Below are positions 9,891-43,743 of a DNA stretch of 60,408 bases, piece by piece (the stretch's first letter is position 1; every line of letters starts with the position of its first letter). The stretch is from Silicimonas sp. (lineage in GTDB: Bacteria > Pseudomonadota > Alphaproteobacteria > Rhodobacterales > Rhodobacteraceae): assembly GCA_013002465.1 (NCBI GenBank), contig JABDJO010000043.1:1-60408 (forward strand), given 5' to 3'. Both the position numbers and the translations under genes were made by a program. The notes beneath the pieces are model-generated. The model made no database searches and was not told the DNA's origin. It saw only the letters and a list, made by a program, of their open reading frames with translations.

Positions 9891-11690
9891 ATGACCGACC
9901 TCGCGCATATCCGCAATTTCTCCATCGTGGCCCATATCGACCATGGGAAATCCACGCTGGCCGACCGGCTGATCCAGATGACCGGGACCGTGGCCGAGCG
10001 GGACATGAAGGAACAGATGCTTGACGCCATGGATATCGAGCGCGAGCGCGGCATCACCATCAAGGCCAACACCGTGCGGATCGAATACCCCGCCAAGGAC
10101 GGCCAGACCTATATCCTGAACCTGATCGACACGCCGGGCCACGTGGATTTCGCCTATGAGGTCTCGCGGTCCATGCAGGCCGTTGAAGGTTCGCTTCTGG
10201 TCGTCGATGCCTCCCAGGGGGTCGAGGCGCAGACGCTTGCCAACGTCTATCAGGCGATCGACGCGGATCACGAAATCGTCCCCGTCCTGAACAAGATCGA
10301 CCTGCCCGCCGCCGACGTCGATCGCGTGGCCGAACAGATCGAGGACGTCATCGGCATCGACGCCACCGACGCCGTGCAGATCAGCGCCAAGACCGGCATC
10401 GGCATCCCCAATGTGCTAGAGGCCATCGTCACGCGCCTGCCAACCCCCAAGGGCGACCGCGACGCCCCCCTCAAAGCCATGCTGGTCGATTCATGGTACG
10501 ACCCCTATCTGGGCGTCGTCGTGATGATCCGCGTCATCGACGGCGTGATCCGGAAGGGCGACCAGATCAAGATGATGCAGACCGGCGCCAAATACGGCGT
10601 CGACAAGCTTTCGGTCCTGAAGCCCCAGATGGTCGATATCAAGGAACTTGGTCCGGGCGAAATCGGCATCCTCACCGCTTCGATCAAACAGGTCCGCGAC
10701 ACCCGCGTCGGCGACACGATCACCCACGACAAGAAACCCTGCGCCCGGGCACTCCCCGGCTTCAAACCAGCGCAACCCGTGGTCTTCTGCGGCCTCTTCC
10801 CCGTCGACAACGCCGAATTCGAGGACCTGCGCGAAGCGATCTCGAAACTCGCCCTCAACGACGCCAGCTTCAGCTCTGAAATGGAAACCTCCGCCGCCCT
10901 CGGCTTTGGCTTCCGCTGCGGTTTCCTTGGCCTTCTCCACCTCGAAGTCATCCGTGACCGCATCGAACGCGAATACGACATCGACCTGATCACCACCGCG
11001 CCCAGCGTGATCTATCACATCTACATGCGCGACGGCACGATGTTGGAGCTTCACAACCCCGCCGACATGCCCGACCTGACGCACGTCGACCACCTCGAAG
11101 AACCGCGCATCAAGGCGACCATTCTTGTTCCGGATGAATACCTTGGCGACGTCCTGAAACTCTGCCAGGACCGCCGCGGCATCCAGGCCGATCTGACCTA
11201 CGCCGGGTCCCGCGCGATGGTGGTCTATGACCTGCCGCTGAACGAGGTCGTCTTCGACTTTTATGACCGCCTGAAATCGGTGACCAAGGGCTATGCCAGC
11301 TTTGACTACCAGATGACCGGTTACCGAGCCGATAACCTGGTGAAAATGTCGATCCTGGTGAACGACGAACCGGTCGACGCGCTGTCGATGATGGTCCACC
11401 GCGACCGCGCCGAGGCCCGCGGCCGCGCCATGGTCGAAAAACTCAAAGACCTGATCCCCCGCCACATGTTCAAAATCCCCATCCAGGCGGCAATAGGCGG
11501 CAAGGTCATCGCCCGCGAGACCCTATCGGCCTTGCGCAAGGACGTGACCGCCAAGTGCTATGGCGGAGACGCCACGCGGAAGAAGAAGCTGCTGGAAAAG
11601 CAGAAAGCGGGCAAGAAGAAGATGCGGCAGTTTGGGAAGGTGGAGATACCGCAGGAAGCTTTCATTAACGCCCTAAAAATGGACGGGTAG
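9891..11690 (+). CDS. lepA: Elongation factor 4 (LepA), ribosome back-translocase
   Basis: A 599-residue translational GTPase that acts on stalled or mis-translocated ribosomes. G-domain motifs are all present: [13 protein letters not shown] (G1), ERGITI (G2), DTPGHVDF (G3) and NKIDLPAAD (G4). The EF-G-like domains and the LepA-specific C terminus ([15 protein letters not shown]...[28 protein letters not shown]) are complete, and the length is normal. The stop codon TAG forms part of the GTAG foot of the first palindrome of the RAYT-associated cluster. The upstream gene is divergent and non-homologous. Confidence 0.98.
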
Positions 11691-11710
11691 GGTGCGTGCT
11701 CGCACGCACC
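11687..11710 (+). repeat. RAYT-associated palindrome R1
   Basis: GTAG (11687-11690) followed by GGTGCGTGCTCGCACGCACC (11691-11710): perfect 9-bp stem, 2-base loop. The TAG of the foot is the lepA stop codon. It is identical to R4 including the foot and the following ACCGCC. Confidence 0.85.
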
Positions 11711-11751
11711 ACCGCCAAAACCCACGCACCACCCCTTCCAACCCGCGCAAA

Positions 11752-11771
11752 GGTGCGTGAGATCACGCACC
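11752..11771. repeat. RAYT-associated palindrome R2 (no GTAG foot)
   Basis: GGTGCGTGAGATCACGCACC: 9-bp stem with GA loop. It lacks GTAG on either side. Its right flank (ACCGCCAAAACCCACGCACC) repeats the right flank of R1, so R1 and R2 are parts of a 61-base tandem unit. Confidence 0.8.
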
Positions 11772-11814
11772 ACCGCCAAAACCCACGCACCACCCCCTTG
11801 CCAACTCATGCAAT

Positions 11815-11838
11815 GGTGCGTGAAATCACGCACCCTAC
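11815..11838 (-). repeat. RAYT-associated palindrome R3, inverted
   Basis: Plus strand GGTGCGTGAAATCACGCACC followed by CTAC (11835-11838); on the minus strand this is GTAG plus a 9-bp-stem hairpin. Its orientation is opposite to R1 and R4, giving a BIME-like head-to-head arrangement. Confidence 0.82.
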
Positions 11839-11876
11839 GCCTCCGGTCGGTTTCCGGGACAGGCCTCACCCTCTCC

Positions 11877-11900
11877 GTAGGGTGCGTGCTCGCACGCACC
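11877..11900 (+). repeat. RAYT-associated palindrome R4
   Basis: GTAG (11877-11880) plus GGTGCGTGCTCGCACGCACC (11881-11900), identical to R1. It lies 36 bases beyond the RAYT gene's 3' end. Confidence 0.85.
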
Positions 11901-11936
11901 ACCGCCGCAACCAACTCTCCCAACACATCACCCACC

Positions 11937-12401
11937 TTACGGCGCATCGCGGTGAAACGATGAATACGGCCACTCCTCTGGTTCATCCACGTACCCGTGC
12001 TTCACGGGATTGAACCAACAATATTCGATGTGTGCGGCGTGATCCGCCGCATCCCGGATATGGTGCTCCCAAAATCGGCGCTGCCAAATGCCCCGTTCCT
12101 GTCGGCGTCGGTGGCTCGGTCTCAATTTGCCTTTCGGCAATTGCCGGGAAAACCGGGATTTGATCAATCGCCATCTGGTGGCGTAGTCGCTGTCATCGAC
12201 CGGTAATGTCCAGACGCAGTGCATGTGATCCGGCAAAACAACCCATGCATCAATTCCAAAGGCTCTTTCGGCGCGTGTGATGCGAACCGCATGGCGCAGG
12301 GCGTCTATTCTCTCGGTAAGAAGACGTGATGCCCGGTCGGCGAGTGTGACGGTGAAAAACACCGTTGCGCCGGAGATCTTTGGGCGGATGTAATTTGACA
12401 T
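11937..12401 (-). mobile_element. REP-associated tyrosine transposase (RAYT, Y1 HUH)
   Basis: A 154-residue single-domain Y1 transposase relative that nicks and joins single-stranded REP hairpins; usually single copy and domesticated. It opens with the family signature MSNYIRPKISGATVFFTV. LPDHMHCVW (residues 57-64) holds the HUH histidines H59 and H61; HIEYCWFNPVKHGYV holds the catalytic tyrosine Y127 and the NPVKHG motif; the C terminus has WPYSSFHR. No frameshift is seen. GTAG-footed hairpins lie both upstream (12430-12453, same orientation) and downstream (R1-R4), as expected for a RAYT with its cognate REPs. No inverted terminal repeats or second transposase are present, so it is not an IS200 copy. 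Confidence 0.9.
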
Positions 12402-12429
12402 TGCGGCATCCTGCCGGGGTCCGGTTAAC

Positions 12430-12453
12430 GGCGCGTGTAAACACGCACCCTAC
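12430..12453 (-). repeat. RAYT-associated palindrome R5, upstream of the transposase
   Basis: On the minus strand GTAG (12453-12450) precedes GGTGCGTGTTTACACGCGCC, a 9-bp stem with one G-T wobble and a TT loop. It sits 29 bases upstream of the RAYT start codon in the same orientation as the gene. Confidence 0.82.
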
Positions 12454-13166: not shown

Positions 13167-13529
13167 TCACTTTTCCGGACGGTCGCCGTAGCCCGCCAGT
13201 TCCAGATCGATTTCGACGGCCCGCAGTTTTGCCGGGTCGCCCGACCGTTCGGCTTTCAAAAGGCGCCGCACCCAATACATGAAACCCCGCCCCGTCCGGC
13301 TTCCGGTCTTCGGGTTGCGCGGCCCCAACTCTATGTCATCCGACTTTTCCCGGATCAGTTCCATGTCGGCCTTGCTGACCAGGTACACCGGGTCCATCCC
13401 CCGGCGTTTGATGCACACCCAGTCGTCGCCATAGCGGACCATCGCGATGTAATGGGCCATCCAGCGGCGAAACTGGGTAACGGTGATAACCTCGCGGATG
13501 TTGTCGGGGTGGTCTTCATAGTTGATCAT
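13167..13529 (-). CDS. YefM/Phd antitoxin-like protein, orphan
   Basis: A 120-residue protein. Residues 14-65 follow the Phd/YefM pattern: VITVTQFRRWMAHYIAMVR (strand plus helix), GDDWVCIKRRGMDPVYLVSK (beta hairpin with R-R-G) and ADMELIREK (helix). The remaining 55 residues are a basic extension longer than in YefM and with no known toxin motif. No RelE/YoeB- or Doc-like gene is adjacent: neighbours are a 33-aa membrane protein and a DksA-like gene. Two TGTACA hexamers (13555-13560, 13587-13592) lie just upstream; TGTACA is the core of the E. coli YefM-YoeB operator. I infer an autoregulated DNA-binding protein; antitoxin activity is unproven. Confidence 0.65.
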   Translation of the reverse strand: MINYEDHPDNIREVITVTQFRRWMAHYIAMVRYGDDWVCIKRRGMDPVYLVSKADMELIREKSDDIELGPRNPKTGSRTGRGFMYWVRRLLKAERSGDPAKLRAVEIDLELAGYGDRPEK

Positions 13530-43399: not shown

Positions 43400-43743
43400 T
43401 GCGTTTGATCCGCATGATCATACTGGCTGTTGTGGCCATTATTCTTGTGACCATCGCTCTTGCCAATCGTGACCCGCTGACACTTCGGCTTTTGCCGGAA
43501 GAATTGTCGCGTCTGCTTGGCTTCAGTTGGGATATCACCTTGCCGGTCTTTGCCGTACTGCTTGGCGCGGTGCTCGCCGGTTTGGCCTTGGGGTTCATCT
43601 GGGAGTGGGTGCGCGAGCACAAGCACCGTGCGACCGCCGCAGCCGAACGTAAGGAACGTCAACGCTTGGAACAGGAAGTCAAGAAAGTCGCACCTTCCCC
43701 AAATACAGGCGACGATGTGCTGGCTTTGCTTGAGGGCCGCTAG
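43399..43743 (+). CDS. lapA: LapA/DUF1049 domain membrane protein
   Basis: A 114-residue protein with two membrane segments (MIILAVVAIILVTIALANRD and ITLPVFAVLLGAVLAGLALG) followed by a cytoplasmic, basic, coiled-coil tail (RATAAAERKERQRLEQEVKK). This layout matches lipopolysaccharide assembly protein A, which works with LapB in LpxC turnover in E. coli; no lapB is adjacent. Coupled to ihfB. Confidence 0.85.
   Translation: MRLIRMIILAVVAIILVTIALANRDPLTLRLLPEELSRLLGFSWDITLPVFAVLLGAVLAGLALGFIWEWVREHKHRATAAAERKERQRLEQEVKKVAPSPNTGDDVLALLEGR

Follow-up and report, generated by a model that had tools for sequence, protein, structure and literature searches.

A probable REPtron in Silicimonas sp.: an E. 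coli-type tyrosine transposase gene flanked by inverted, bulge-free GTAG hairpins

The DNA analysed here, termed the window throughout, is a whole stretch of 60,408 nucleotides from Silicimonas sp. of the Rhodobacteraceae (assembly GCA_013002465.1, contig JABDJO010000043.1), in which a gene for a tyrosine transposase associated with repetitive extragenic palindromes (REPs) is surrounded by five short, related hairpins downstream of lepA. This REP-associated tyrosine transposase (RAYT) gene occupies positions 11937-12401 of the minus strand and codes for a protein of 154 aa, which was recognised by profile, PDB and model matches. Its translation and alignment display the HUH motif as H59-M60-H61, the nucleophile Y127 and NPVKHG at 131-136, so that the open reading frame (ORF) bears out the Y1 transposase relative with these features that a first-pass annotation had described from the letters alone; the protein combines the HUH motif, the catalytic tyrosine and the NP(L/V)(R/K)xG motif by which RAYT/TnpAREP proteins are defined (PMC2817692). 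Against the NCBIfam profile NF047646 (REP-associated tyrosine transposase) it scores 185.3 bits, far above the curated cutoff of 80, which places it in that family and supports the earlier designation of a RAYT with cognate GTAG hairpins; a Pfam search gave no match at E 0.001. The sole PDB sequence match at the same threshold is 4ER8, the Escherichia coli TnpAREP in complex with its REP (E 1e-43). An AlphaFold2 model built from a 41-row alignment (mean pLDDT 90, pTM 0.85) matches 4er8 in Foldseek with a TMq of 0.86, an rmsd of 1.4 and 48% identity, as against a TMq of ~0.5 and 12-19% identity for IS200/IS605 transposases. The residues Q95 and R104, named as GTAG contacts of the E. coli enzyme (PMC6006769, PMC8266576), correspond to Q107 and R116 in the alignment, and W94, whose role is called unclear, to W106. 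The bulge-contacting K82 of E. coli is aligned with Ser82, at a position that is highly variable in the family; we considered K82 as a marker of bulged REPs and rejected it, as the position varies widely in both hairpin classes.

When the tagged strand is folded (for R2, the minus strand), all five hairpins, R1 to R5, form a bulge-free stem of 8 bp with a 4-nt loop, with folding energies between -6.8 (R5) and -8.6 kcal/mol under DNA parameters. R1 (11687-11710, hairpin 11691-11710) and R4 (11877-11900, hairpin 11881-11900) lie on the plus strand, match the hairpin pattern exactly and have the loop CTCG, the tagged form reading GTAG-GGTGCGTG-CTCG-CACGCACC. R3 (11815-11838, hairpin 11815-11834, loop ATTT), again an exact match, and R5 (12430-12453, hairpin 12430-12449, loop TTTA), with one mismatch that amounts to a T-G pair on its tagged strand, carry GTAG directly 5' on the minus strand. 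R2 (11752-11771) is an exact hairpin devoid of GTAG, which is tentatively assigned to the minus strand, where its loop reads ATCT, by the loop rule given below. A scan of the window at <=3 mismatches returned seven matches, viz., the five hairpins and weak ones at 43608 and 44774, compared with a mean of 0.65 and a maximum of 3 in the shuffled control; the five related 20-base palindromes, the GTAG at four of them and the inversion of R3 and R5 relative to R1 and R4, all noticed in the first pass, are thereby confirmed. R4, the nearest REP 3' of the gene, and R5, on its 5' side with 28 bases between it and the start codon, bracket the RAYT over 577 bases as an inverted pair (R4 plus, R5 minus) with both GTAG feet outward, which is the arrangement of flanking REPs that characterizes REPtrons. 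R3 and R4 are oriented toward each other. R1-R3 (window 11691-11835) also form part of a decayed array with 61-63-base spacing and half-hairpins, CCCACGCACCACCCC, in between.

The same hairpin is dispersed across the genome. Below, G, C and L numbers denote genomes (G000 being the window's own), contigs, and RAYT or hairpin loci or rows, respectively; G000 comprises 3.68 Mb in 137 contigs, of which the window is C130, and is the sole genome of its genus analysed. Its exact copies number 15, spread over 7 contigs, and the count rises to 19 at <=1 mismatch and 24 at <=2, as against none exact and one at <=2 mismatches for the reversed pattern; the earlier expectation of genome-wide dispersal is thus borne out. 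The GTAG foot is present on 14 of the 15 exact copies. Doublets of opposite orientation with their feet inward occur on C81 (twice), C92, C103 and C134 (twice), one partner on C134 having GTGG in place of GTAG. Ten merged hairpin sites lie away from the RAYT, most of them flanked by an identified gene on at least one side and located in a gap between genes or at a gene end, i.e., dispersed and extragenic as REPs are; they have no full annotation, and some are overlapped by other ORFs, mostly without a Pfam match. Three are found in successive gaps of one glutamine-synthetase/glutamate-synthase cluster (C81:27942-31291, L019), each gap with a hairpin or doublet and the middle one with one mismatch, one follows atpB, and one separates an ABC transporter gene from an amidohydrolase gene.

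To trace the hairpin among relatives, we used a family sample of 295 Rhodobacteraceae genomes, one per genus, 41 of which carry the exact tagged hairpin and 98 a RAYT match. At least one tagged match was found in 26 of the 98 RAYT-positive genomes versus 15 of the 197 RAYT-negative ones (p 2e-5), and at least three in 16/98 versus 2/197 (p 7e-7); the hairpin is hence not equally frequent in relatives devoid of a RAYT. At least three matches are present in all nine genomes whose RAYT is classed as flanked by the window hairpin and in 9 of the 286 others, a comparison that is partly circular, as flanking copies are counted and G257 has one site away from its RAYT. These nine were hand-listed from fetched loci, with G199 included on one-mismatch hairpins and G107 (whose L138 likewise has a one-mismatch copy) left out, and copy numbers are strand matches in which double-footed sites count twice (13 matches at 10 sites in G180, 4 at 3 in G257). 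The 18 genomes with at least three matches fall into 9 with a RAYT classed as flanked by the window hairpin, 7 with RAYTs outside that class and 2 with no RAYT above the cutoff, and the first-pass proposal that the hairpin is limited to strains carrying this RAYT fails accordingly. A second search with NF047646 of the 15 genomes that have the hairpin but no RAYT gave no match above the cutoff and two weak ones in G132. G132 was rejected as an orphan-REP genome: its lepA contig extends for only 428 bases beyond the 3' end of lepA, a stretch that contains two tagged hairpins, and this contig end, along with the two sub-cutoff matches, raises the possibility that its RAYT was lost in an assembly gap. 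The only clear multi-copy orphan that stands is G034, which is 99% complete and has 12 tagged hairpins on C1 and no RAYT match. With G034 and the other RAYT-negative hairpin genomes, strict confinement to RAYT carriers was rejected; although its link to RAYTs is strong, the hairpin is confined neither to them nor to RAYTs of the window clade.

The stem being palindromic, a loop that is asymmetric with respect to GTAG carries information. Of 142 listed tagged hairpins, 134 have T at loop position 2 and 4 have it there in the opposite sense, and 138 have complementary outer loop bases; this tally draws on places from 27 of the 41 hairpin-bearing genomes, at most 13 from each and double-footed sites left out, and the copies are related, so that these and the following loop counts are non-independent events. 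Near RAYTs, single-footed GGTGCGTG hairpins have T at position 2 in 32/32 four-base and 5/5 five-base loops; when all arm types in the vicinity of RAYTs are pooled, 89 of 124 hairpins have T and 26 have C at this position, with an opposite-sense T in 2. GTAG and the loop T constitute a strand-specific signature, and its application to R2 suggests a minus-strand REP that has lost its GTAG foot.

Based on these observations, we consider the locus to be probably a REPtron, i.e., a RAYT gene with GTAG hairpins in inverted orientation on either side, which its own enzyme would cut and spread. By this account, the enzyme would recognize the folded single strand via the GTAG foot and the loop T and, extrapolating from E. 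coli TnpAREP and the IS200/IS605 transposases, would cut next to the hairpin through Tyr127 with formation of a covalent link. Single REPs or inverted doublets would then be transferred to further single-stranded sites in intergenic gaps, with mobilization taking place in trans during single-stranded phases of the DNA. We further predict that, in this Rhodobacterales branch of the E. coli-type RAYTs, the small loop with its T substitutes for the stem bulge of E. coli in offering the enzyme an unpaired base to read, and that GTAG is read without a C-terminal tail.

REPtrons as a kind are known. RAYTs flanked by inverted, coevolving GT(A/G)G REPs were described in 2010 from gammaproteobacteria only (PMC2817692), and GTAG repeats are reported from every division of Proteobacteria, the alphaproteobacterial cases being Bradyrhizobium and R. 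palustris (PMC3733652); Alphaproteobacteria are listed with none or few such genes per genome (PMC6006769). We found no description of REPtrons of Rhodobacteraceae in the titles and abstract starts of open-licence PMC articles, partly among best-ranked matches only, nor the term 'rhodobacter' in PMC12306157. Two protein groups with two recognition strategies are distinguished (PMC8266576): subclass 2.2 (group 2), to which the E. coli enzyme belongs, is listed with long or long-bulged REPs, and subclass 2.5 (group 3) with short ones (PMC6006769). The window locus shares with the E. coli REPtron the predicted fold, the HUH motif and tyrosine, the retained Q95/R104 pair, the GTAG directly at the hairpin foot and the inverted REPs beside the gene. 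The first-pass parallel with E. coli thus holds for the GTAG foot but not for the stem: the E. coli REPs are 29-37 nt long and bulged, both bulge and upper stem matter, and the enzyme is severely impaired by a perfect-hairpin REP or by loss of the upper stem and loop (PMC8266576), whereas the window hairpins are 20 nt long, bulge-free and closed by a 4-nt loop, and E. coli has a C-terminal tail and K82 where the window protein is tail-less with Ser82. In place of the long, mostly bulged REPs of group 2 (PMC6006769), the window thus has short perfect ones as in group 3, and the Stenotrophomonas and Marinomonas REPtrons of that group (Sm and Mb) likewise combine short perfect palindromes with a small loop containing a critical base, namely G13 (Sm) or T13 (Mb) (PMC8266576). 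However, their proteins are marked by WQ and YI[VI]ANP motifs (PMC6006769), in contrast to FWEH and YCWFNP in the window RAYT.

The PDB match, the Foldseek comparison and the trees all place the window protein by descent among the E. coli-type RAYTs of group 2. We parsed 202 RAYT-like genes (E. coli included), retained 192 by score and length, reduced them to 178 non-redundant rows and called GT(A/G)G hairpins within ~250 bases of each gene, which yielded 83 rows with short hairpins, 31 with long ones and 64 with none called. The best 33 of the 80 named RAYT loci carry Rhodobacteraceae or Rhodobacterales names. A FastTree phylogeny of the 111 rows with a called REP class and a score >=140 (L072 left out, tail columns omitted) unites 77 rows in one clade with SH-like support 97, all with short, bulge-free hairpins of 18-21 nt and all from Rhodobacterales where named, except for one alphaproteobacterial metagenome-assembled genome (L067); among the 123 family rows, no REP was called for 45. 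In an IQ-TREE analysis of 74 rows, the 41 Rhodobacterales-type rows (SH-aLRT 99) are nested in a 66-row E. coli-type clade (89), and L215, the sole representative of group 3, falls outside the E. coli-type rows on a long branch of unsure placement. Long REPs are found in 31 rows, from E. coli, other beta- and gammaproteobacteria, Bradyrhizobium and further taxa; their median element is 26 nt long, and 22 of the rows have unpaired stem bases, as against a median of none in 9. Among these, the Bradyrhizobium/Rhodopseudomonas rows resemble the window in combining alphaproteobacterial GTAG REPs (PMC3733652) with E. coli-type RAYTs, but differ in that L068, L070, L094, L095 and L099 have REPs of median 25-28 nt with stem defects and keep the tail; a further row, L093, has a shorter REP. 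Short hairpins were rejected as a trait of Rhodobacterales only, as L091, L207, L222 and L102 have them outside the clade. Within the clade, the arms mostly track subclades (GGTGCGTG, GGTGCGCA, GGCGGGGT and GGTGGGCA), with exceptions including L138 and L132. Of 82 long REP elements, 61 have their first unpaired base after 7-9 bp of stem (after 7 bp for E. coli, L199), and the loop of short REPs starts after 7-9 bp in 141 of 141 distinct tagged hairpins, in a scan that admitted 7-9 only; since both begin 7-9 bp above GTAG, the short-REP loop stands approximately where E. coli has its bulge.

What is new in the window, then, is that a tail-less enzyme of the E. coli type goes together with small-loop REPs free of a bulge. 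From these sequence comparisons we tentatively propose that the E. coli-type RAYTs of Rhodobacterales might have rewired their DNA recognition, with the upper stem lost, a near-invariant loop T in the place of the bulge and, in the window branch, a tail-less yet GTAG-reading enzyme; the claim is tempered by the dispensability of the tail GTAG contacts even in E. coli (PMC8266576). A clade that joins E. coli-type proteins to bulge-free hairpins breaks the described pairing of protein group and REP type and extends REPtrons well into Rhodobacteraceae. Its substrates are small and simple, and the roles of GTAG, loop base, stem and tail could be separated by swapping parts among relatives.

Several observations weigh against the REPtron account. 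The 15 exact hairpins (19 at <=1 mismatch) fall well short of the more than 100 per genome that are usual, if not obligatory, for REPs (PMC2817692); half of the multi-copy genomes (9/18) have no RAYT classed as flanked by the window hairpin; and G034 harbours an orphan REP population. L138 of G107 is adjoined by a near copy of the window hairpin, although its protein belongs to another subclade, and L153, from the same family and with no called REP, is accompanied by REPs of 40 nt that include an upper stem. Stems without a bulge also occur beyond Rhodobacterales, as the 9 of 31 long rows with a median of no stem defect (L072, L075, L077, L083, L086, L209, L213, L214 and L228) lie outside the clade, several of them with an 8-bp stem and a larger loop. 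Furthermore, the window protein ends about where a crippling 21-residue deletion ends the E. coli protein, and we found no activity data for it or its close kin in the literature.

The tail bears on the foremost alternative, which we regard as unlikely, namely that the window RAYT is a tail-less relic or a regulator and that its hairpins were spread by an ancestral or another RAYT. The window protein ends 3 residues after FHR, as against 26 in E. coli, and so is devoid of the ~20-residue extension (PMC8266576). Deletion of 21 or 34 C-terminal residues is reported to cripple the E. coli enzyme, whereas removal of the last 13, including by numbering the GTAG-contacting G160 and E161, raised its activity (PMC8266576), which implies that E. 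coli needs the region in between and can dispense with the tail GTAG contacts. The window RAYT is without that region and could thus be weak or inactive, and the 15 exact copies only, the loss of GTAG at R2 and the 12 tagged copies that persist in G034 without a RAYT are all in line with a relic. Nonetheless, the reading frame is intact, the core motifs are retained and 14 of the 15 exact hairpins keep GTAG, from which conservation we infer that the enzyme reads it. Tails of at least 18 residues are found in 28 of 30 long-REP tree rows and 26 of 77 Rhodobacterales-type rows. A GE-ending tail is absent from all 36 rows whose hairpins are of the GGTG(C/T)G type, among them the window, but present in 21 of 41 with other arms; a different tail of 18 or more residues is found in 4 of the 36. 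As these 36 rows include RAYTs of G180, G191 and G199, genomes with 13-24 tagged matches, the absence of the GE-ending tail appears to be the norm of an apparently successful clade. Tail loss as a single event is unsupported, with 17 changes on the FastTree tree.

It is considerably less probable that the hairpins are transcription terminators or mRNA-stabilizing elements, next to which the RAYT is a coincidence. Their positions at gene ends and in intercistronic gaps, such as the lepA stop, rplQ/rpoA, rpsE/rplR and rpoB/rpoC, would suit such a role, and ribosomal or RNA polymerase operons account for 5 of the 10 sites distant from the RAYT, with hairpins in the following gaps: tuf/rpsJ, before rplB, rpsE/rplR, rplQ/rpoA and rpoB/rpoC (C134:10515-10568, C134:19543-19596, C103:141-189, C103:3672-3691 and C92:8678-8697; loci L024, L025, L023 and L021). 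Such gaps also account for 7 of 80 regions from relatives (one each in G023, G180, G246, G132 and G034, two in G191), these regions coming from 10 genomes chosen for several copies, with G165 and part of G132 left out. Assuming a target of ~1% of the genome, which is an estimate, the enrichment has p 5e-8 in the own genome, where it was noticed post hoc, and p 2e-5 in the relatives, some sites being possibly shared by descent; a rough control of 169 RAYT loci gave 4 matches, all via fusA in loci with lepA-like ORFs. However, a single DNA strand is marked by GTAG and the loop T, the doublets place both orientations within one gap, the copy number tracks RAYTs, and no run of T was found 3' of the window hairpins. 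It is possible that the operon sites reflect single-stranded DNA at highly transcribed operons or selection for effects on mRNA, and a secondary RNA role of the hairpins may exist. The rpoB stop TAG of the own genome also overlaps a hairpin (L021:1879).

The RAYT is convergent to lepA (elongation factor 4; 9891-11690, plus strand), and this location is recurrent: a RAYT and lepA face each other with their 3' ends in the window and at 11 further loci among the 202, which are of varied flank length, including Maritimibacter, Cognatishimia, Cribrihabitans, Paracoccus, Pararhodobacter, Marivivens and Sulfitobacter, with several hairpin types among them. L028 shares the lepA-like ORFs in a different arrangement, and four Marivita loci have another common neighbourhood. 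We searched 74 of the 98 RAYT-positive genomes for lepA and found it in 68, of which 10 (G000, G018, G023, G055, G107, G115, G152, G191, G221 and G229) have a RAYT convergent to it within 2 kb and 58 have none there. Because of this recurrence, the gene was probably inherited in place while its hairpins diverged, though repeated insertion beside lepA may be an alternative. If the proposed rewiring of recognition holds, the family would offer a natural series for reading the RAYT-REP specificity code, as RAYTs at the same lepA locus carry different hairpin arms. The recurrent location also speaks against the 'autonomous' RAYT of the first-pass annotation, which has no second copy in its genome, only a 61% identical paralogue with different hairpins. 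That R4, the RAYT and R5 move together as a minimal IS200/IS605-like insertion sequence is a most improbable notion, which we rejected: the outward GTAG feet of the inverted pair over 577 bases, and the identical layouts in G180:C85 (578 bases) and G257:C21 (574 bases), would suit it, and IS608 and ISDra2 share the Y1 HUH single-strand fold and hairpin recognition with contact to an unpaired T (PMC8266576), but they differ from the window as multicopy units and in their distant sequence and fold (12-19% identity, TMq ~0.5, with the window model far closer to TnpAREP), and the genome holds one gene copy and the paralogue rather than near-identical copies, at a location shared by 10 of 68 genomes.

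The paralogue, RAYT2 (C132:14149-14628, L018), has a 22-aa GE-ending tail and is flanked by its own hairpin, GTAG-GATGGGTG, distinct from the window type; the 12-base head of this hairpin occurs five times in the own genome, three of them at the RAYT2 locus, and the type is found in 8 of the 295 family genomes, all 8 RAYT-positive. A third type, GGTGGGTG-N4-CACCCACC with a GTAG foot, occurs in G000 at C103:3559-3578 and C124:8-27. At the lepA end of the array, the GTAG of R1 overlaps the TAG stop codon of lepA (11687-11690), and the lepA stop TAG stands likewise directly 5' of a REP hairpin in Maritimibacter (L032), with different arms. Beyond the RAYT, an ORF of 120 aa at window 13167-13529 gives a sub-threshold match to the Phd/YefM antitoxins (20.9 bits against a cutoff of 29.8).

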